Both the position numbers and the translations under genes were made by a program. The notes under the pieces are model-generated. The model had not been told where the DNA came from, did not search any database, and saw only the letters and a list, made by a program, of their open reading frames with translations. DNA of 64,000 bases from Pseudobdellovibrionaceae bacterium (GTDB lineage: Bacteria > Bdellovibrionota > Bdellovibrionia > Bdellovibrionales > UBA1609), in NCBI GenBank assembly GCA_018663505.1, contig JABJQG010000061.1:1-64000 (forward strand), written 5' to 3'. This document shows positions 5,290-21,201 of the stretch, piece by piece (position 1 is the first letter of the stretch; each line of letters starts with the position of its first letter).

Positions 5290-8200
5290 ATGAACAATAA
5301 TACTAATAACTTCAAAAAGTTCTTTGCGCTTGGTTTTTTGGTGCTGGTAACTGCAGTGTCGTGTACCAGAGAGCGAGCTGACAAGTTTTCTGACGGAGCT
5401 GATGATAACATTTATAAAATTAGCTTCTTTACAAATGCTAAAGTTCGGGTCTCTGTTCATCCTCAATCTCAAAACACTTCATCTGAGTTAAGTTTAAATG
5501 AAACCTACCTTATTGATGATGACTCTTATGAAGGGCCTAGTCGAATCGGCTCCATGTTTGCTAAGTTGAAGGTGATGAAAAGCAAAACTACAAATTACAA
5601 TGTGGTTTTTAAAGTTAATGAGGAATACCTTACAGCTTTTAAAGTTATGTCTAAAGTGGATTTAACAGATGTAGAAAAAGGAACTTTTAAACCTAATAAA
5701 GAAGATGCGAGTACAGTTTTAGTTCCTATTTTCCATTATGCTGTACAACAACATGGCAATATAGTTCCCTCTAAAGATATGGATGGACGATCTACAAATA
5801 GGTTGAGAATGGAGTCAGCTTCATTTGAAAAATCCACAGCTATCCGTGTTTCTAATTTAACAAAAGATAGAATTGATATGCTTTTGACTGAGGAAAGTCC
5901 CTACTATAAGTCAAAAGATGTTAATGGACGTATCTTGTTGGCCTCAGAGGTTAAGGAAAAGTTAAAAGTTAAGTTAGATGTTTCAAGTGACAAACCTTTG
6001 TACAGTGATTTAACAGAGAATCATTTGAATTTGTTTCAAGTGGTAAATTATGATGAGTTATCTGATCTTGAACAAAAATTACTAGATGAGGGTGAGGAGT
6101 ATGCTTTAAAAAAATGTACGTCATCTGTTCATAAAGCCTTGGCTAAGGACAAGAGCGCTACCTCCACAAGTCAAGTTTCCAAAGATAATTGTTATATGGT
6201 TTTGGCTTATGAAGTAAATGTAATGCATGGTGAGTTTAAACAACCTCAAAACACCAGCCAAACAGCATTAGACCCAAGTTTAACTTTTGAAGAGGTTCCT
6301 GGCTTAACCAGTGTTATTGAAATTAGCAAAAATACTGAACCTAGATCAATGAGAACATCCGATGATTACATTGATCCTGATAACATTGTTAATACCGATG
6401 ATATTATAGGTAAAGAGTTTCTATACAGATCAACAATTCAAGATGTTTCAAACGAATTTCCTCATGCCTTGCCGGGAAGATCTGGAGGACTAGAGGTTGT
6501 TAAGTTTGAACTTTTGGATCATGAGATAAAAGTGACAAGCGTAAAAGCTCTTAGGGAAGTGCAGTCTGGCACAGATACAGATAAGGAATCTATACTATCC
6601 ATTCCCGTGGCTCGTTATGTGGAAAAAGTGATGGTGGGTGATGATGGAGTTAAATTATCAAAGCCACAGTATAGAACTGTAGATAAAGGTTTTAAAGGGG
6701 CTATTGCTGAGGTAGATTGGACATCATTAAGAATGAACGGAGAGAAAGCTTCAGCAACAAGTAATTTGAGTGTTTGTTTTACGGGGAGAACAAGCAAAGA
6801 TGTTGAGTCTGTGGACAATCGTTTGTCAAACGATTCAGAGCATAGTGAAGGTATATTGAACTTTACCTTGGTTTCAGACTATAACGCCAGGGATTTTTGT
6901 CAAAATCAATATATGGATTGGTTTGATAGGGTGCAATCTAACTTTAGATTTAAAGAAAGAATTTCTTTTAAGGAGTATATAAAAAAATCAGAAAAATCAT
7001 TAATGGATATTCCTTATGAAAAACAAAAACTATTAGGCTTTGGGTTATTTACCTACAATAAGAATAATACTAATGAAGATATCCTACAGGGTTTAAGCGG
7101 TTCTAAAATTCATTTGCCAGCACTCTTTGATATTAAAAATGGTAAACAGATTAATTACGTTTTAGCTGGGCTTCCTAAAGGGCCTGGGCGTGATATAGAG
7201 CGTAAGGCTTTAATACAAGCTACAGTGGAAGTTATAGCTGATTGGAACTTGGCTTTTAAAAAAGCTTTTAAAGGAACGGATCTTGAAAGACCTGGTGACG
7301 TGATTAAGTTATCTATTGAAGGGGTAAGTGTAGAGAACAGCCAAAATCACGAGGTAGTAAAAGCTGGCTTGCCTGGGGACCTAGACAAGAATTACCTATA
7401 TTTAGTTAATAAACCGACAAAATCTTCCGTAATTGGTACTGGTGGGTCTCATCCAAATCCATTTTCTGGAAAAATTGAAAACGGATCGGTGTATCAATAC
7501 ACTGGAAATATGCTGTCTTATGCTCGAGTCATAAAACATTATGCTAAAATTAAAAAAGAGTATGAAGAAATAATGGGACAGATTGAGGTTGCTCCCTCTC
7601 CGGAAGAAGCAGAATCTTTGGATCCAGATTCTGCTGATGTTCCAGAAGAAGAACAAGCGCAAAATAGTGTTGAGAGAACCCCTGAAGCTAGCTCAGAAAC
7701 ACTTTCGATTTTAGATGGAATGCCTGAGTTAACAAACAAATGGATGGTGGAAAATAAAACCACTCCGTATGTTTTGTTTGATAAGAGAAATAAGGCCGTA
7801 GGTTTTGCTAAGAATATTAGACCAAGAGAGCTAAAGTCTTCAATGCAGCAAAGATATGAAAGAAACAAAAGAAAAAGATGGGATAAATTTGTTGAAAACA
7901 ATAAGCATGAATTAGGTGGAGAAGCCCTTGCTCTTTTTGAGTCCGTTCAAGAGGCAGCAAGTCTTGGCCAGTTGAATCAGCCGTATGTTCTTGAGAAATT
8001 TTTTAATAAATTTGCAGCGGAAAGATTAAAGGGTGAACTTTCTCCGGATAAATTAGAGAGGTTATCACTAAATTCAAAAGTAGCTGATGTGGCTAAGCAG
8101 ATTCACGATAACTCTATAGCTGCACATGAGTGCATTTATGATTCGGCTCAGGTTAATATCGCGGCTGCAGCCGATGCTCTAATTAAGTTTGAATCAGAGT

Positions 8201-10230
8201 CGGATCAAGAATTAGCTATGTCAGATATTGAGTTGATGGTGCGTATTTATAAGCCAACATTAGCTCATGAAATTGGGCATAATATTGGTTTTAGACATAA
8301 CTTTGTGGCCTCCTACGATAAGAGCAATTGGTATTTTAAGGGAGAGAGTGGGGATACAACACCAAGAAATTACTCATCTGTGATGGATTATCAGCCTAAC
8401 GATCATATTACATATGATGGGCTTGGGCCACAGGATATAGCATCTATTCGTGCAGCATATGCTGGGTTGGTAGAGTTAAGTGATCAGTCTGTTGCGGACT
8501 ATGTATCCATTGATGATCAGGGTAGTTTTGTATCTAATAATACTGAAGGTAGTAGAATCAAGGTATATAATCAAAAATATATGAAAATTGAAGACTATAA
8601 AAACATAATTGGTCTGAATTCTTGGAATGATTTAACAGAAGAGGTAATAACGGCGCTACCTTTGAAGTCATATAAGTTCTGTTCTGACGAAGATGTGGGC
8701 TTGTATCCGACTTGTAATAGACATGATAATGGAACCACACCATCAGAAATTGTGGATGATATTATTGAAAATTATAAGTCAGGGTATGCTTATAGAAACT
8801 TTGCCATGGATCGAATTAAGTTCGATTACTGGAACAATGGCGGTTATATTGGTGGAGTTTTCGGAAGATTTATAAAAATCCGTCAATTCTTAGAAGAAAC
8901 TATTTATCAATTGATTACTGGTGGATCTAGTGAGGAAATCGATGGAAATTTAAATGCCGCAATTAAAGGTATGCAGTTTTTCCATGAAGTTATTAAAACA
9001 CCAGATGCTTCATTTTTATTAACAAAAAATGAACGTTTTTTAAAGTTATCTACTGCTGAGGGATCATTCATTGCTGAGAGAAAATGGCTTCGAAGTCGTG
9101 ATTTTGGTGATAAAACTGATAAGATGAGTATCAGAGGTGTTGAGTTTGACAAAATGGTAGCCTTAATTATGCTGACTCAAAGACAAATGGGCTTTCAGAG
9201 ATATGAACAAGCTAGTTTGAGGTTTTCATACCCAGAATTAGAGAAGCTATTACTTCAGTCTGGAGGAGCCTCACCTTTAGAGTACCCAACCTTGGATTTA
9301 TTGTACTCTATGATGAGTGATAATGTAAAAGCTTCTGTAGTGAGTCCAATTACTGGTCGTCCGGTAAACTTACCACAGCAGTTTAAAACAGACACTACAG
9401 AGATGCTTAGGGCCTATGCCATTATTGGCGCCATATCATTTCTAGATGTGGATGCTTTGGAAGCAACAAGAAACATGTCATCACTATTTAGAATATCAAG
9501 TAGTAAGGATCTAAAATCTAAGTTGCAGGTAACTAAGCCTGGTGGAACTTTAGAATCAGAGGACTCCTTGAAGTTATCTGCTGAAGATGGGGCAGTGATT
9601 GCTGAGAAGCTTATTATTAACAATGATGCTTTAGCGCAATTACATGCTAAAAAAGAAGAGCTCACGCCTTTGGTAAATAAGTGGTTAGATTTAACGTTCA
9701 ATCCAGAAGAAGAGGCTGAGCCTGTTGTTGTGGATGAAATTATTGAAATAGAAGAAATAGAGAGTGAGGATGGAGAAGTTGTTGCTGAAGAAGAAATTCA
9801 AGAGGATGGTTTGGCACCTCCCGCAGAAAAAAAGTATACAGCAGACGAAATTGCAGAAAAAATTGATGCCATTTTAGAAAAAATGCCAGATGAAATTGGT
9901 ATTAAAAAGATGGATGCTATGGGTAAAATATTGCTAAGTATATTTGAACAAGGGAAGCTTTTAGAAGAGAGCCTTGGGGCGGATATTGATTCAAATGACT
10001 CCAGGTTAACTATAGAAGGAGTGGTTCATCAAGTGGAATACCTGATGAAGGATATTCCATCTATTGGTGCCTTTGCTTCCATGGTTGATAAAAAGCATCT
10101 AAAAGATGTGCCTGTAACAGCACAGATTTTTAATCAAAGTTTATCTGAATCTCATAGAGGTATTAATTTTTCCAATTTAAATACCTTAAGTCGTATTTAC
10201 TTTTATAATCATGAAAGAGAAAATAGGTAA
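5290..10230 (+). CDS. Large zinc metalloprotease lipoprotein (metzincin-type, about 1646 aa)
   Basis: I start the protein at the ATG at 5290, which has an AAAGGGG site upstream, rather than at an earlier in-frame codon. The signal peptide ends in VSC, making it a probable lipoprotein. The core motif HEIGHNIGFRH begins at His993 and gives a full HExxHxxGxxH zinc site. It is followed by RNYSSVMDYQPND, whose Met fits the Met-turn of metzincins. This resembles the large bacterial zinc-dependent metalloproteases with DUF5117/DUF4953-like parts. Acidic low-complexity segments lie near residues 765-800 and 1475-1520. Location is inferred to be the envelope or cell surface. A strong terminator follows at 10255, so the gene is monocistronic. 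Confidence 0.8.
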   Translation: MNNNTNNFKKFFALGFLVLVTAVSCTRERADKFSDGADDNIYKISFFTNAKVRVSVHPQSQNTSSELSLNETYLIDDDSYEGPSRIGSMFAKLKVMKSKTTNYNVVFKVNEEYLTAFKVMSKVDLTDVEKGTFKPNKEDASTVLVPIFHYAVQQHGNIVPSKDMDGRSTNRLRMESASFEKSTAIRVSNLTKDRIDMLLTEESPYYKSKDVNGRILLASEVKEKLKVKLDVSSDKPLYSDLTENHLNLFQVVNYDELSDLEQKLLDEGEEYALKKCTSSVHKALAKDKSATSTSQVSKDNCYMVLAYEVNVMHGEFKQPQNTSQTALDPSLTFEEVPGLTSVIEISKNTEPRSMRTSDDYIDPDNIVNTDDIIGKEFLYRSTIQDVSNEFPHALPGRSGGLEVVKFELLDHEIKVTSVKALREVQSGTDTDKESILSIPVARYVEKVMVGDDGVKLSKPQYRTVDKGFKGAIAEVDWTSLRMNGEKASATSNLSVCFTGRTSKDVESVDNRLSNDSEHSEGILNFTLVSDYNARDFCQNQYMDWFDRVQSNFRFKERISFKEYIKKSEKSLMDIPYEKQKLLGFGLFTYNKNNTNEDILQGLSGSKIHLPALFDIKNGKQINYVLAGLPKGPGRDIERKALIQATVEVIADWNLAFKKAFKGTDLERPGDVIKLSIEGVSVENSQNHEVVKAGLPGDLDKNYLYLVNKPTKSSVIGTGGSHPNPFSGKIENGSVYQYTGNMLSYARVIKHYAKIKKEYEEIMGQIEVAPSPEEAESLDPDSADVPEEEQAQNSVERTPEASSETLSILDGMPELTNKWMVENKTTPYVLFDKRNKAVGFAKNIRPRELKSSMQQRYERNKRKRWDKFVENNKHELGGEALALFESVQEAASLGQLNQPYVLEKFFNKFAAERLKGELSPDKLERLSLNSKVADVAKQIHDNSIAAHECIYDSAQVNIAAAADALIKFESESDQELAMSDIELMVRIYKPTLAHEIGHNIGFRHNFVASYDKSNWYFKGESGDTTPRNYSSVMDYQPNDHITYDGLGPQDIASIRAAYAGLVELSDQSVADYVSIDDQGSFVSNNTEGSRIKVYNQKYMKIEDYKNIIGLNSWNDLTEEVITALPLKSYKFCSDEDVGLYPTCNRHDNGTTPSEIVDDIIENYKSGYAYRNFAMDRIKFDYWNNGGYIGGVFGRFIKIRQFLEETIYQLITGGSSEEIDGNLNAAIKGMQFFHEVIKTPDASFLLTKNERFLKLSTAEGSFIAERKWLRSRDFGDKTDKMSIRGVEFDKMVALIMLTQRQMGFQRYEQASLRFSYPELEKLLLQSGGASPLEYPTLDLLYSMMSDNVKASVVSPITGRPVNLPQQFKTDTTEMLRAYAIIGAISFLDVDALEATRNMSSLFRISSSKDLKSKLQVTKPGGTLESEDSLKLSAEDGAVIAEKLIINNDALAQLHAKKEELTPLVNKWLDLTFNPEEEAEPVVVDEIIEIEEIESEDGEVVAEEEIQEDGLAPPAEKKYTADEIAEKIDAILEKMPDEIGIKKMDAMGKILLSIFEQGKLLEESLGADIDSNDSRLTIEGVVHQVEYLMKDIPSIGAFASMVDKKHLKDVPVTAQIFNQSLSESHRGINFSNLNTLSRIYFYNHERENR

Positions 10231-10886: not shown

Positions 10887-12476
10887 GTGATATTATTGAA
10901 AGGTATGGCAAAATATACGGTTTTAATTATTGTGTTAGCAAGCCTAATCTTGGTGGGATATAAAGTTACATTTCTTGGCTATAGCCCTGAGCTAATATTA
11001 CCTGATTATAATTATAATGTTACCATCTCATTATCTGGGAATACTGATAAAAGTAAAGTTGTATTGCGATCATTTTTACCTACTGAGGACTTTAGACAAA
11101 CTATTTCTGACGAACAGTTTCGTTCAAAAGATTTTAACATGCAAATTGAAACTAGAGGGCTAAACAGAGAGGTGGCTTGGGATAGTTTTAATCCTGAAGG
11201 AGTCTTTCGAGTTGAATACCAATTTACCGCCGAAGCAAAACCAGTTAAATGGCAGATTCAAAAAGATTTGAAAATTGAAAAAAGTGAAAATGAAGAGCTT
11301 CAAATATATTTGCAAGAAACAGATATGATACCTTTTAATCACCCATCAATATCTAAGCTATTCGAAGAAGAAATTGGTAGTGAAAAGCAATACGTATTAC
11401 CAGTGTTGAAATTGGCATTTGATTATGTTAGCAAGATTAAAACCTTGCCATTTAAAGGCAGCACAAGTGCTCTCACGGCGTTGGCTTTGCAAAAGGCATC
11501 GTGCAATGGGAAAAGTCGTCTGATGGTTGCTTTGCTTAGAAAAGCAGGGATTCCAGCTCGCTTAATTGGCGGTTTAGTAATGAATAGTGGTAAGAAGAAA
11601 ACCAGCCATCAGTGGGTGGAAGCTTATATTGGTGGAGTTTGGGTAAGTTTTGATTCTACTAATGGTCACTTTGCCAAAATACCTGAAAACTATTTAAAAT
11701 TATATATCGGGGATCATATATTGTTCAAACACACAGCAGAAATTGGGTTTCAATGGCAATTTTCTATTCAACCTTTTCTAGCACAATCTAAGGATCTGTT
11801 TCGATTAAGTGGTAACAAATTAAATGTTCTTAATCTCTTTGAGTTGTTCGAACGGTCGGGAGTCTCTTTGGGAATACTTAAATTATTATTAATGTTACCT
11901 GTTGGAGCCTTAATTGCTACATTTTTTAGAAATGTCATTGGTACACAAACCTATGGAACGTTTTTACCAGCACTTATTGCAGCATCTGCAATGGAAACAG
12001 GGATATGGTGGGGACTTCTTGGTTTTACATCTGTCATTCTTTTCATAGCAATTATTAGAATTTTTTTTGAAAAACTAGATTTAATGCATACCCCAAAGTT
12101 ATCAGCAATGTTTAGTATTGTGATTATTGTAGTTATTGGGATTAGCTTATTGTCGGTACAGTTCACACAAATTAACTTAAGTAAAGCGAGCTTATTTCCT
12201 ATTGCCATTTTAACATTAACAGCAGAGAGGCTGTCTATAACTATTGAAGAAAAAGGGAATTTAAAAGCTTTTTTAATTTTGTTACAAACCCTATTCGTAA
12301 CGGCGGTCTGCTTTGCATTTATGAGTAATTTATTTTTACAAACTTCCTTTTTAGCTTTTCCAGAGTTAGTTTTTGTCATTATTGGTTTGAACGTTTGGCT
12401 TGGTCGTTGGGTTGGGTTAAGAGTTTTTGAAATATGGCGTTTTAAAGACCTAGTGTTTGTGGAAAATTCAAAATGA
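10887..12476 (+). CDS. Membrane-anchored transglutaminase-like protease with C-terminal 7TM domain
   Basis: The first helix (about residues 10-25) is a signal anchor. It is followed by an extracytoplasmic domain, a transglutaminase core (about 180-270), and roughly seven hydrophobic segments from about 330 to 515. The catalytic triad of the core looks intact: Cys206 in ASCNGKSRL, His241 in SHQWVEAY and Asp256 in VSFDSTNG. The architecture matches the transglutaminase-7TM proteins that occur beside ATP-grasp ligases, many of which are annotated as inactive transglutaminases; this one keeps its triad. The start is GTG at 10887, with an alternative ATG at 10905 whose AAGG site is very close. The stop overlaps the next gene by 4 bp, so the two are translationally coupled. 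Confidence 0.75.
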   Translation: MILLKGMAKYTVLIIVLASLILVGYKVTFLGYSPELILPDYNYNVTISLSGNTDKSKVVLRSFLPTEDFRQTISDEQFRSKDFNMQIETRGLNREVAWDSFNPEGVFRVEYQFTAEAKPVKWQIQKDLKIEKSENEELQIYLQETDMIPFNHPSISKLFEEEIGSEKQYVLPVLKLAFDYVSKIKTLPFKGSTSALTALALQKASCNGKSRLMVALLRKAGIPARLIGGLVMNSGKKKTSHQWVEAYIGGVWVSFDSTNGHFAKIPENYLKLYIGDHILFKHTAEIGFQWQFSIQPFLAQSKDLFRLSGNKLNVLNLFELFERSGVSLGILKLLLMLPVGALIATFFRNVIGTQTYGTFLPALIAASAMETGIWWGLLGFTSVILFIAIIRIFFEKLDLMHTPKLSAMFSIVIIVVIGISLLSVQFTQINLSKASLFPIAILTLTAERLSITIEEKGNLKAFLILLQTLFVTAVCFAFMSNLFLQTSFLAFPELVFVIIGLNVWLGRWVGLRVFEIWRFKDLVFVENSK

Positions 12477-13357
12477 TTAAGTTTTTAAAAGACATTTCAA
12501 ATGCTAACGAAGTTGTTCTAGGCATGAACAGAAGGAATGTTGAATATATTAGGAAGTACAACTCTCGTAGGGATTATCCTCTGGCAGATAATAAAATTTT
12601 TAGTAAAATATTCTTTAAGGAACATGGGTTGCCAGCACCGGTAAATATTAAAACCTATTCAAACTTATATGAGTTAAATAACTTGAAAAAAGATTTATCA
12701 TTGGTGAATGATTTTGTAGTTAAGCCAGCTTCGGGCAGTCAAGGTAACGGAATCATTGTGGTGGTTGAAAATAAGCAAGACCATGTTGTAACTATTAGTG
12801 GGAAGATTTTATCTTTAGATAACTTAAAATATGAGTGTGCCTCTATTCTTTTTGGAAAGTATAGCCAGGGAAATCAGGATGAAGTAATTGTGGAAGAACG
12901 TATTATTACATGTGAAGAACTTAAGAAAAGCAGCGAAGGTGGTCTTCCAGATATTAGAATAATTGTAATTGATGAGGTCCCATATTTAGCAATGTTACGA
13001 CTGCCAACATTAGAGTCTAAGGGTAAAGCAAATTTACATCAGGGAGGGATTGGCGTTGGTATCGATATTTTAACAGGACATTCAAATTTCGCTCATTTAC
13101 ATGGAAATAAGATTATAAAACATCCACGACTAGATTTGGACTTATCTAAAATTCAAATTCCTTATTGGCAAGAGATATTAGATATAACAAAAAAGCTTTC
13201 AAAAAAAAGTCCACTTAAATATATTGGTGTTGATATGACAATTGATGAGCACAAAGGTCCAATGATATTGGAATTTAATGCAAGACCAGGATTAGAAATA
13301 CAAAATGCCAATCAGGTTGGAATGTTAAGCTTATTTAAACAGATAGAGACATCATAA
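12473..13357 (+). CDS. ATP-grasp ligase, alpha-L-glutamate ligase-like
   Basis: The 294-residue protein has the ATP-grasp layout. A preATP-grasp segment is followed by DFVVKPASGSQGNGI (ATP-binding Lys and glycine loop), EVIVEERI (adenine-contacting strand), DIRIIVIDEVPYLAMLRLP and the metal-binding LEFNARPGLEIQNAN near the C-terminus. The family joins an amino acid or peptide to a carboxylate with ATP hydrolysis. Members next to transglutaminase-7TM genes are called alpha-L-glutamate ligase-like, but their substrates are not established. It has no signal and should be cytoplasmic. It overlaps the upstream gene by 4 bp and lies 2 bp from the TPR gene. Confidence 0.85.
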   Translation: MIKFLKDISNANEVVLGMNRRNVEYIRKYNSRRDYPLADNKIFSKIFFKEHGLPAPVNIKTYSNLYELNNLKKDLSLVNDFVVKPASGSQGNGIIVVVENKQDHVVTISGKILSLDNLKYECASILFGKYSQGNQDEVIVEERIITCEELKKSSEGGLPDIRIIVIDEVPYLAMLRLPTLESKGKANLHQGGIGVGIDILTGHSNFAHLHGNKIIKHPRLDLDLSKIQIPYWQEILDITKKLSKKSPLKYIGVDMTIDEHKGPMILEFNARPGLEIQNANQVGMLSLFKQIETS

Positions 13358-13359
13358 AC

Positions 13360-15336
13360 ATGAAATATTTACGACTTATTTCTAATTCATTCATTCCCCT
13401 GCTTATGGTATTTGCTGCAGTTGGTGGAGCATTAGTGTGGGCTCACTTTAAAATCCAAACTAAAGAAAGTAATTATATTATTGTTATTGTAAATTCTAAA
13501 AATCAAACTGACGATGACCAATTCAAATTAGTCACTTTAGGTGTGTTAAGTCCACAATATCTACAAAAGGACTTACGTGAATTAGATATAGCTCAACAGA
13601 CAGACAAGCAGCTTCAATTGTTACTCAATCAGATTATTAGCAATGAAAAACTAGATCATAAAAATATGAGAATGATGAATAACCACCTATCGCTGCTTTT
13701 GCATTTTAAGTATAAGGAGGAAACTAAATATTTTGTTGAAAAAATTATTTTTGAATTTGGTAAGTTGTTATCCTTTTTGGATTCGGTGCCATCAATTAGA
13801 ATAAAAAAAGGCTTATCTAATAATCTAGCATTATATTACTTTAGAAGACAAAATTATAAGAAAGCATCTAAATTATATAGATACTCCCTAAAAGTTAAAA
13901 ATGAGTGGCAGCAACTATTAGCTCTAGGATTAATTGAAATTAAGAAAAAAAATTTAGTTCAGGCTAAGCATTATTTTTCTCAAAGTTTAAAAATGAGTAG
14001 TGAGATGCCAAAACATCTATTCTATTTTACTTTTGCAAACTATTTAAAAAAATCCAATTTCAACATTGAAAGTCTTGAATATTATAAACAAGCACTCAGA
14101 GAAAATGAAGATTTTCTTCCTGCAAAGCTAAATACAGCAGTTGTTCTAAAAAAAATTAAGAAATTCGATGAAGCAGAGTCACTGTATAATGAAATATTGA
14201 TGCAAAATAAAAATTATTTTAATGCAAACTACAATTTAGGTTTACTTCTTAAGGACAGGGCTAGGTATGATGGAGCTATTAAAAGTTTAAAAGCAGCCAT
14301 TTTGCTTAATAAATCTCATCAAGGGGCGCGGACAACATTAGCCGATCTGTACTTCAAACAAAAAAAATACCCTGAGGCATTAGAGCTGTATTTATGGGTA
14401 TTAAAAAAATCACCTAGTGATGTGAAAGCCAGTTATGAAGTTGCAAATTGCTATATCAAAATGGCTAAAACTAAATTGGCTCAGAAGTATTATATGATGG
14501 CTATAGAAAAAAGTGGAGGGAGCTATACATGGGCTTGGTTAAAATTAGGTCAAATTCAAGAGAAGTTGGGTGAGTTAGATAAGGCAGAAGAGCATTATCT
14601 AGATTCAATTCAATTAAATCCATCCTTTGCTGGCGGACATGCAGCATTAGGTAAACTTCATTTTAAACGTGGAAACTACGGCAAGGCATTAGAATATTAT
14701 AAAAAATCCATTAAAATAAGACCACAGGCAAGTTTATATTATAGAAGGGTTGCTGACACTTACATAAAAGAAAAAAACTATAAAGAAGCCAGCGGATATT
14801 TAAAACAAGCTATTAAAATCGACCCCGAAAGTATTCTAACAAACCTAGATTATGGAAATATATTGAGTAAATTAGGTAAGTACCACGAAGCAGAAAAGTA
14901 TTTAAAATTTGTGATTAAAAAAAGGCCTTACAAGAGTTCAGTATGGAATCGATTAGGAAAGAATCAGGCAAAATCCAAACAGTATGAACAATCCATTATC
15001 TCTTTTAATAAATCTTTAGAAACTGCCGACCAGGAAGATACTAAGTTTTTATCCATTGTAACCCAGAGAAAAATTAAAAGTTTGGTAAAGCAAAATAAAC
15101 TCACTGAGGCTCAATTATTAGTGGGAAAGCTTATTGAAATGCGTGGAGACTATGTTGATGCTCATATTCTAGCTGCACAAATTGCCTCTAAGTCAAACAG
15201 GGATATGGATGTTGTGAAATCTTTAAATTTAGCTCTAAATTTCACAAAAGATGAGTGTAAAACATTGAGAAGGGCTAAGAAAATAAGGCGTAAAGAATTT
15301 GAAAAACGTTGGAAACAAGTTTGTCAAAAGCTGTAA
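13360..15336 (+). CDS. TPR-repeat protein with N-terminal membrane anchor
   Basis: The product is 658 residues. A hydrophobic segment at about residues 10-30 anchors or exports it. From about residue 160 to 620 it is almost entirely tetratricopeptide repeats, seen as recurring patterns such as FKRGNYGKALEYYKKSIKIR and LGELDKAEEHYLDSIQLNP, at least ten copies. TPR arrays are protein-interaction scaffolds, often found with secretion or envelope-assembly machines. The 2-bp gap to the ATP-grasp gene supports co-transcription. It may link the inner-membrane enzyme to the outer-membrane barrel that follows; that role is inferred. Confidence 0.8.
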   Translation: MKYLRLISNSFIPLLMVFAAVGGALVWAHFKIQTKESNYIIVIVNSKNQTDDDQFKLVTLGVLSPQYLQKDLRELDIAQQTDKQLQLLLNQIISNEKLDHKNMRMMNNHLSLLLHFKYKEETKYFVEKIIFEFGKLLSFLDSVPSIRIKKGLSNNLALYYFRRQNYKKASKLYRYSLKVKNEWQQLLALGLIEIKKKNLVQAKHYFSQSLKMSSEMPKHLFYFTFANYLKKSNFNIESLEYYKQALRENEDFLPAKLNTAVVLKKIKKFDEAESLYNEILMQNKNYFNANYNLGLLLKDRARYDGAIKSLKAAILLNKSHQGARTTLADLYFKQKKYPEALELYLWVLKKSPSDVKASYEVANCYIKMAKTKLAQKYYMMAIEKSGGSYTWAWLKLGQIQEKLGELDKAEEHYLDSIQLNPSFAGGHAALGKLHFKRGNYGKALEYYKKSIKIRPQASLYYRRVADTYIKEKNYKEASGYLKQAIKIDPESILTNLDYGNILSKLGKYHEAEKYLKFVIKKRPYKSSVWNRLGKNQAKSKQYEQSIISFNKSLETADQEDTKFLSIVTQRKIKSLVKQNKLTEAQLLVGKLIEMRGDYVDAHILAAQIASKSNRDMDVVKSLNLALNFTKDECKTLRRAKKIRRKEFEKRWKQVCQKL

Positions 15337-15484
15337 AGTCCTGTTTTTACGCAATTATATTATAATCATAATGTTCCGCTTGCGGAATAACAAAATCACA
15401 GAGAATATATAAAGGCCGTGGGTATTGCAGGCTTATTATTTTTCTAGATACTTATTGTTAATTTTTAAAAAAGGAATTGTGGTA

Positions 15485-16774
15485 ATGAAATACAATCTTT
15501 TGAAGAGTATAATGTATGTTATTTTATCTTTTACATTGTTTAACAGTTCGTTAATTCAGGCCCAAGAGGACGAAGATGTTGTAGAAAAAAAACGTATAAA
15601 AAAAAAGAAGAAAGGAAAACAAATAGTTGCCGATGTTCAGTTGGATTTGGGATATAGCTCTAATGTATTTAAAACACCTGAAGGTACTTACCTTGACCCC
15701 GAGACAGGGCTTGATAATATTAGTAAAAAAACATCAGCCACATTTGTAAACCCAGATTTAAGTATAGAGTGGTTACCATTAAATAAAAAAAGGCATAAAG
15801 TTTCTATTGAAGCTGCTTATGATGGAATGTTCTATAGTGGAGATACAAATGTTTCAAATAGTAATGGTTATGACACTCGTGCTGATTTATTTTATGAATT
15901 TTCATTAAAGAGAAAAAGAATCAAAGTGCGGAAATTAAGTTCTAAGGATCAGTTTAAAAAAATAAGAAAAAGAAAAAAACGTAAAAATACACATAATTTA
16001 AAAATTGGTGGGTACCTAAGACAACACAAGTTCAATTACATTCATCGTGGTACAGGTGGACTGAGGGTTACTAGGCTAAATCAGTTGGAAGAAGAGAACA
16101 GGTATGTTTATGGAGAAAATGGCTACTATTTTAAGTATAATTGGAAATTAAAAAAGATGTTTAACTTGGGAGCGGAGGTCAACTTTTTCTCTAAAGATTA
16201 TGAAGAAGTTGCAAATTTTGGATCTTATGACAGAGATGTATCTGTTTGGAAGTTAAAGTTTGATTATCGGATATATAAACGATGGAAATTAGGTTTTGGA
16301 AAAAAAATGATTAGCAAAAACTATTTATCACATAAAGCAAACAGTGTCACTGGAGCTTCAGTTACGGGGACTTTACGTAAATACCTTGAAGATGAATCAT
16401 CAGTAAAAATATCTTTTAAAGCAAAAAAAATAAGAGTTAAGTTTGGGTACAAATATTTTACACGTGACGATACGTATGCTAGCTATTGGTCTTATGCTCA
16501 AAATAAATATACATCTGATTTTATCTACATATTTAATAAAAAATATCGAGTTAACTTAGAACATGTACAATCAAATAGACAGTATATGTTAGAGACTAAT
16601 CCTGACGGTGCAATAAGAGACCGAACTAACACATCCACAGGTCTATCCCTAAAAAAATCAAATTCTTGGGGCGACGTACGGTTGGCAGTTAATGATAGTA
16701 ACCAGGTTGATAAGGATCCTTACTATACATATAAAAAACAGTTATACAGTTTAAGCTATTCAAAAGAGTTTTAA
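15485..16774 (+). CDS. Outer-membrane beta-barrel-like protein
   Basis: I start at the ATG at 15485, which has an AAGGA site 9 bases upstream. The signal peptide ends near LIQAQ. The mature protein opens with an unusually basic stretch (EKKRIKKKKKGKQ), then shows alternating polar/hydrophobic strands rich in Tyr, Trp and Lys. It ends in YSLSYSKEF with a terminal Phe, as expected for a Bam-assembled barrel. A second lysine/arginine-rich loop occurs near residues 140-175. It resembles surface-exposed porin-like proteins of unknown function. It lies 148 bp after the TPR gene; a small hairpin without a T-run (15372-15387) lies between them, so it is probably the last gene of that operon. Confidence 0.65.
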   Translation: MKYNLLKSIMYVILSFTLFNSSLIQAQEDEDVVEKKRIKKKKKGKQIVADVQLDLGYSSNVFKTPEGTYLDPETGLDNISKKTSATFVNPDLSIEWLPLNKKRHKVSIEAAYDGMFYSGDTNVSNSNGYDTRADLFYEFSLKRKRIKVRKLSSKDQFKKIRKRKKRKNTHNLKIGGYLRQHKFNYIHRGTGGLRVTRLNQLEEENRYVYGENGYYFKYNWKLKKMFNLGAEVNFFSKDYEEVANFGSYDRDVSVWKLKFDYRIYKRWKLGFGKKMISKNYLSHKANSVTGASVTGTLRKYLEDESSVKISFKAKKIRVKFGYKYFTRDDTYASYWSYAQNKYTSDFIYIFNKKYRVNLEHVQSNRQYMLETNPDGAIRDRTNTSTGLSLKKSNSWGDVRLAVNDSNQVDKDPYYTYKKQLYSLSYSKEF

Positions 16775-19932: not shown

Positions 19933-20940
19933 TTAAAGCTTGTAAACTTCATATTCTGATGAAGATCCTTTGAAGAGGATATGCATTGCATTTTCAGAAG
20001 GCAAGAATACCATTGAAGCTAAGGTGCGTTCATAAGTTATTGGATATTTTTTCAGAATATTTTTCGTTTCATCTATGCTGATTTTATTCTTCTGAGCAGC
20101 AAATCTTGACTCCATTTCACTTTGTCTTGTTAAACTTGTTGAATCAGGACGTTTGACACCAATATCAGACTTAATTAATTCCGAGTCTGTCAAAAAATGA
20201 TTTGCATGACAAAAGCTGTCTATTTGAAGCTCTTTTGTAACAATCCTACTAGGGGTGCATTCGACATTTATCCCCCCGCAGCCTTCTTGAGCTAAGATGA
20301 AATTGTTGGGAACAGCGAGTGGAGTATTTTTTAAGAACTCCATAGCTGAACTTAATGTTTGCTTGGTAAGTAGTTCTCTAATAATTGCGGTAGTTGGTAC
20401 GCCTGTTAACAAGTTTCTTTCAGCATTATCTACATACTGCCAAAGTACCACAAGTTTGTGACAATTCATCCCCATGTAAGCAGGAATGCCTGGGTGGGTG
20501 TAGATAAAACTTTTGCAATTATTCTCATCTGTAAGGTGTATGACTTTATCGTATTTTGCTGAAAACCAATCTTCAGGATCTTCATCATTGGTTTGACCCA
20601 ATATCAACCTCCCATGAGTGTCTCGTGAATAAAATCCTGTACATTTTTCCTTATTACCTTCAAGCCATGCCTCATATTCAAAGCTAAGAAGGAGTAAGTC
20701 ATAAAGGTCAAGGTTTAGCTGTTTCGCTAGGCTTACTATCTCCTGATAGCAAATGGGTGTATGTGTTTTAACAGAATTTTCAAAGCATTCTAACACAGAT
20801 TTGACTTCATTCATTGCAGGAGCATATTTCACTTTTTTTTGTTCTAAAAGACTATTTATTTCAAAAGAGAGTTGATCAGCAAGTTGGGCTCCTCGCTCTT
20901 GAGCATTTCCTTTAACAGTAATAAGTCTTTTTGAAGCCAT
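19933..20940 (-). CDS. C45-family autoproteolytic acyltransferase/hydrolase
   Basis: The 335-residue protein resembles the acyl-CoA:6-APA acyltransferase (C45, Ntn-hydrolase) family. Cys100 in EKCTGFYSRD is the expected nucleophile, exposed by self-cleavage before it, and GRLILGQTNDEDP matches the downstream family motif. A family-typical N-terminal propeptide of about 99 residues precedes the Cys. The substrate is unknown; family members hydrolyse or transfer acyl groups on amides. I prefer the ATG at 20940, with GAGG 9 bases upstream, over the GTG at 20955. There is no signal peptide. The gene is isolated by gaps of about 300 and 250 bp, which show no other gene. Confidence 0.8.
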   Translation of the reverse strand: MASKRLITVKGNAQERGAQLADQLSFEINSLLEQKKVKYAPAMNEVKSVLECFENSVKTHTPICYQEIVSLAKQLNLDLYDLLLLSFEYEAWLEGNKEKCTGFYSRDTHGRLILGQTNDEDPEDWFSAKYDKVIHLTDENNCKSFIYTHPGIPAYMGMNCHKLVVLWQYVDNAERNLLTGVPTTAIIRELLTKQTLSSAMEFLKNTPLAVPNNFILAQEGCGGINVECTPSRIVTKELQIDSFCHANHFLTDSELIKSDIGVKRPDSTSLTRQSEMESRFAAQKNKISIDETKNILKKYPITYERTLASMVFLPSENAMHILFKGSSSEYEVYKL

Positions 20941-21201
20941 CTGTTCAATCCTCACAGGTAAACTGTAGCCAGTGCTTGTCTATTGATATATTTCCTCTAA
21001 TGTGTCTTTTTCTTCCACTTGCCATACGTCCCTCCATATCTTGAAGAACTTTAGGTGGTCAAGTCCTTGGGGGGTATATAATGTCATTGTTTCTTGTAAA
21101 ACATCTTTTTACCTGTGAACAACGTCAGACATCAGTTTAAACTCATGCTGATTATTTTGTAGAAATTTTAGTGTGAAAGCTTTGTAACAGACAATGGTTC
21201 C

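Follow-up and report, generated by a model that had tools for sequence, protein, structure and literature searches.

A divergent rlo-type operon with an intact transglutaminase triad and adjoining TPR and predicted barrel genes in a Pseudobdellovibrionaceae bacterium

Two overlapping genes of a Pseudobdellovibrionaceae bacterium (contig JABJQG010000061.1) are, by their sequences, divergent members of the RloB and RloC families, the core of the rloABC operon. What marks the locus out is that RloA has been lost and that the catalytic triad in the transglutaminase-fold domain of RloB is intact. Both this combination and the identity of the pair as RloB/RloC of a named operon had been missed in the original prediction from the DNA alone. 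We tentatively read the locus, with rather less than even confidence, as an rlo-type operon, divergent in sequence, that has been adapted to export a glutamate-type peptide polymer through the envelope, by a series of steps that we infer. Its features lie as follows in the window, by which we mean the whole stretch of 64,000 nucleotides that was analyzed:

Gene 1, 10887 to 12476, plus strand: RloB-like protein, start codon GTG (PF14402, PF01841 and NF052267 matches; triad alignment).
Gene 2, 12473 to 13357, plus strand: RloC-like ATP-grasp ligase (alpha-L-glutamate-ligase-like), ATPgrasp_ST (PF14397, TIGR02291).
Gene 3, 13360 to 15336, plus strand: inner-membrane-anchored TPR protein (TPR_1; one N-terminal TM helix).
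Inverted repeat, 15374 to 15387, no strand: perfect repeat TTCCGC-TT-GCGGAA (TTCCGCTTGCGGAA) with a stem of 5-6 pairs, in the gap between genes 3 and 4.
Gene 4, 15485 to 16774, plus strand: secreted basic protein, predicted outer-membrane beta-barrel (start codon ATG; signal peptide, C-terminal Phe, strand excess).

Organization of the locus

All four ORFs are intact and lie where they had been predicted, and the spacing is also as claimed, with genes overlapping or 2 bp apart except for the last: genes 1 and 2 share a 4-bp ATGA overlap (gene 2 starting at 12473), genes 2 and 3 are separated by 2 bp, and genes 3 and 4 by 148 bp that include a hairpin. Because its start at 13360 falls only 2 bp past the gene 2 stop, gene 3 is very probably co-transcribed with gene 2. 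The lengths of gene 1 homologues agree better with a start at the in-frame ATG at 10905 than with the GTG. The inverted repeat occurs once in the window, has no T-run downstream on the plus strand, and is possibly a regulator site or a weak attenuator. Promoter and terminator scans gave results no better than shuffled sequence, and base composition showed no sharp break at the four-gene cassette.

Just upstream of the operon, positions 5290-10227 encode a 1646-aa lipoprotein-like protein with a DUF4953 met-zincin metalloprotease domain. Elsewhere in the window, positions 19933-20955 encode an Acyl-CoA:6-aminopenicillanic-acid acyltransferase-like protein (PF03417).

An RloB with its triad intact and an RloC-like ligase

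Gene 1 encodes an N-terminal membrane helix, a periplasmic transglutaminase-fold domain and a C-terminal 7TM region. It matches PF14402 7TM_transglut (E 2.5e-46) and PF01841 Transglut_core (E 1.7e-16, with the model's catalytic end included in the match). Its closest NCBIfam model is that of RloB, NF052267, which matches at 2.4e-44, yet far below the model's strict cut-off. Its Cys-His-Asp residues (C206/H241/D256 counted from the GTG; C200/H235/D250 from the ATG at 10905) align in register with the transglutaminase-like structure 3isr, the nearest solved PF01841 structure, whose record title is putative cysteine protease. Cysteine peptidases are common among the PF01841 proteins of bacteria.

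By contrast, the catalytic Cys is missing from all of the 27 RloBs that were aligned with the window's protein, and none of them carries the full Cys-His-Asp set; the Aeromonas RloB, whose protein was read directly, has no Cys at the catalytic position. These results, with the match of gene 2 to PF14397 ATPgrasp_ST (E 5.9e-71), bear out three claims made originally from the sequence: that a transglutaminase-7TM protein is paired with an ATP-grasp ligase, that the transglutaminase of such pairs is often inactive, and that Cys206-His241-Asp256 are present here. The structure prediction proposed at the same time as a check on the triad was run with AlphaFold2, but it reached a pLDDT of 33 from a 2-sequence alignment and the model was not used.

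The NCBIfam model closest to gene 2 is TIGR02291, that of the RloC-type ligase (E 1.8e-80). The protein has further marks of its family, for it keeps K41, K84, D160, R162, R176, N187, E267 and N269, which are invariant across homologues and include ATP-grasp residues. The solved structures nearest to the RloC profile are those of RimK, archaeal glutamate ligases, TTLL (tubulin) polyglutamylases and cyanophycin synthase. The literature searched reports no product for any RloC.

The 7TM region is conserved in the window's RloB. A 7TM-ATP-grasp fusion occurs in an archaeon, Halobacterium sp. DL1, where an unannotated 584-aa ORF on plasmid CP007061.1 (L056:3845-5599) carries PF14402 followed by PF14397, with neither a transglutaminase domain nor RloA. 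This fusion supports the view that 7TM and ATP-grasp act together directly, as a single unit, and it offers a minimal core for biochemistry.

Comparison with canonical rloABC loci

The rloABC operon was named and described in 2025 in Pseudomonas aeruginosa PA14, where RloA, a secreted retropepsin, cuts stretches of at least 8 Glu, RloB is an inactive transglutaminase with a 7TM region, and RloC is an ATP-grasp protein (PMC12239564). Its phenotypes there involve hypo-osmotic stress and cell shape, and triple rloA mutants, when rloB or rloC is also deleted, fully regain growth in the absence of salt (PMC12239564). Because loss of RloBC suppresses loss of RloA in this way, the simplest reading is that RloBC acts upstream of the RloA substrate, that is, that it produces what RloA removes. 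An RloB-type protein also influences vesicle production in Shewanella (PMC12096838).

The window resembles the PA14 operon in that a transglutaminase-7TM RloB is followed by an ATP-grasp RloC, with the genes overlapping, and differs from it in having no RloA, an intact triad, and added TPR and barrel genes. Among 290 sampled genomes of the phylum, 27, including the window's own, contain PF14402 above the family cut-off. The order rloA-rloB-rloC was found in all 25 of the complete phylum loci read (two further loci are cut by contig ends), as well as in Legionella adelaidensis and Aeromonas caviae. RloA is present and the transglutaminase dead in 27 of 27 complete canonical loci, whereas in the window RloA is absent and the triad intact. 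The RloAs of the phylum are recognized by PF05618 at 1e-26 to 1e-27; in the window's genome, which is 97% complete, neither PF05618 nor an RloA profile matched anything.

TPR or barrel genes follow RloC in none of the other loci read, and the co-occurrence of the four families, originally proposed as a check on the system, was seen in no other phylum locus read. A cross-phylum contig scan with two weak patterns returned one locus, already known, and nothing was found in the viral contigs searched.

Two loci show further variations. One RloA of 338 aa (L035:6395-7411) carries a pair of retropepsin motifs in tandem, RVDTGAKTTS and RIDTGASRTS; the usual working form of a retropepsin is a dimer. 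In one genome of the family to which the window belongs, rloC is followed immediately by the gene for another ATP-grasp protein (LAL_C2, L-amino-acid-ligase-like; L033:507-1640).

A tree built on RloB and RloC joined end to end, with gammaproteobacterial sequences as the outgroup, puts the window's pair on a separate deep branch, outside a 19-row clade of phylum sequences (support 99/97) and very long (5.49 changes per column). Grouping it with its own taxonomic family was rejected (p-AU 0.0006), and the same test was borderline (0.051) with one more row, L037. The placement is provisional because the branches are long. On this placement, the operon probably did not arise by recent modification of the rloABC of its own family. 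It may keep an older, active state of the transglutaminase domain; possibly, activity was instead regained.

Genes 3 and 4 and a possible route for envelope export

The gene 3 protein has one N-terminal TM helix, a pI of 9.75 and a net charge of +52, and matches TPR_1 over 10 stretches (E 5.9e-46; about 10 TPRs), a generic TPR match only. The gene 4 protein (pI 9.8) had no match in protein family searches; it has a signal peptide and a C-terminal YSLSYSKEF, an OMP-type end with Phe, both recognized by inspection, and a mature part with no hydrophobic helix. Its amphipathic strands number 18, against 13.3 +/- 2.1 in shuffled sequences (a mild excess, 2.2 sd), and these traits make an outer-membrane barrel its probable identity; the single-sequence structure prediction reached a pLDDT of 30 and was not used.

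For the N-terminal region of the TPR protein, as for the barrel, 368 genomes of the phylum contained no orthologue and plasmids no convincing relative; weak barrel matches in four genomes were inspected and rejected as chance. Because of this, and because such genes come after RloC in none of the other loci read, the association of genes 3 and 4 with the pair rests on spacing, and the idea of a four-gene system on the gene spacing of one genome. The claim that a TPR scaffold and a basic barrel carry the system across both membranes is supported as regards a set of parts suited to span the envelope, and weakened in that the four genes recur together in no other phylum locus read. Net positive charge ranked the barrel 2nd and the TPR protein 3rd among 102 sampled ORFs of at least 400 aa in their own genome, but among its secreted-like proteins their charge reaches only about the top decile.

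In alginate export, AlgK, a TPR protein, provides an electropositive route that leads to the AlgE porin (PMC9734138). The resemblance of the basic TPR and barrel proteins to this system, and their suitability for an anionic substrate, are suggestive only. The order of a putative membrane synthase, periplasmic modifying enzyme, TPR protein and predicted outer-membrane porin is shared with synthase-dependent exopolysaccharide exporters (AlgK/AlgE, PelB, PgaA, BcsC; PMC9734138), but the window has an ATP-grasp ligase in place of a glycosyltransferase and its TPR protein is anchored in the inner membrane. Family searches placed neither the TPR protein nor the barrel in known exopolysaccharide-exporter families.

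Two other known systems invite comparison. The RloC profile matches RimK structures 5zct and 4iwx, although RimK, which with RimB serves in ribosomal S6 glutamylation, is cytoplasmic and has no 7TM partner, and a RimK-like outgroup falls far off in the tree. In the PgsBCA/CapBCA poly-gamma-glutamate synthases, a soluble ligase and a multi-TM partner export a glutamate polymer, which is the same general idea. The window's 7TM region has no detectable sequence relation to CapC/PgsC (PF14102), and no CapC was found in its genome.

In the export mechanism that we tentatively propose, a chain of one acidic amino acid, with L-glutamate the likeliest, would be built in the cytoplasm by RloC and moved to the periplasm by the RloB 7TM region, as one unit with RloC. 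There the active transglutaminase/papain-fold domain would cut, release or transfer it, replacing the job done elsewhere by RloA, and the TPR protein would lead this anionic chain towards the basic barrel, to be displayed or released. The whole set would thus resemble a synthase-dependent exopolysaccharide exporter of the AlgK/AlgE, PelB or PgaA type, but for a poly-amino-acid. The absence of RloA alongside an apparently living version of a normally dead domain suggests that this domain acts on RloA's substrate, and the appended export-like genes suggest that the product can leave the cell. Also in favor of export are the glutamate ligases and polyglutamylases nearest to the RloC profile, the Glu-run specificity of RloA with RloBC upstream of it, the family matches and the Halobacterium fusion, and the high charge rank of genes 3 and 4 with the AlgK/AlgE precedent. 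Weighing against it are the confinement of genes 3 and 4 to one genome of the phylum, the 148-bp gap and hairpin before gene 4, the lack of any reported RloC product in the literature searched, a basic charge that stands out only modestly among secreted-like proteins, an anchored TPR protein unlike AlgK, and the low pLDDT of both structure models. The strongest form of the proposal is doubtful: a machine spanning the Gram-negative envelope by which a polyglutamate-like peptide polymer is both made and secreted, with an ATP-grasp/7TM synthase-translocase, an active transglutaminase-fold enzyme releasing or anchoring the polymer, a TPR guide and a basic outer-membrane barrel, as a protein-polymer counterpart of alginate export.

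The same uniqueness of the four-gene set, and the absence of TPR and barrel genes from every other rloABC locus read, would be expected if the operon worked only at the inner membrane and periplasm, as an rlo-type envelope stress operon in which RloBC yields either a glutamate-type peptide in the periplasm or a polyglutamylated envelope protein, the active transglutaminase trims this product in place of RloA, and genes 3 and 4 are unrelated neighbors. The hypo-osmotic and cell-shape phenotypes of P. aeruginosa (PMC12239564) also fit such a role, which is a serious possibility, if one that we lean against; the very probable co-transcription of gene 3 with gene 2 and the basic character of both added proteins speak against it. 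We consider it quite improbable that the locus is a decaying or horizontally acquired remnant, in which rloA was lost, fast-evolving genes have no coordinated role and the triad was kept by chance: the very long RloBC branch and the lack of orthologues for genes 3 and 4 would suit a remnant, but the four ORFs are intact, the RloC invariant residues and the 7TM region are conserved, and chance retention of a full triad that 27 aligned relatives have lost is unlikely. The chemistry of the domain bears on a further alternative, that it is a true transglutaminase or amidotransferase attaching ATP-grasp-activated amino acids or peptides to an envelope component. Its fold and complete Cys-His-Asp set would allow this; however, the peptidase leanings of bacterial PF01841 proteins and of 3isr, the cytoplasmic origin of the ATP-grasp product and the polyglutamate peptidase activity of the partner enzyme RloA point elsewhere, so that attachment to the envelope, as first proposed for this locus, is unlikely and is not the best-supported chemistry.
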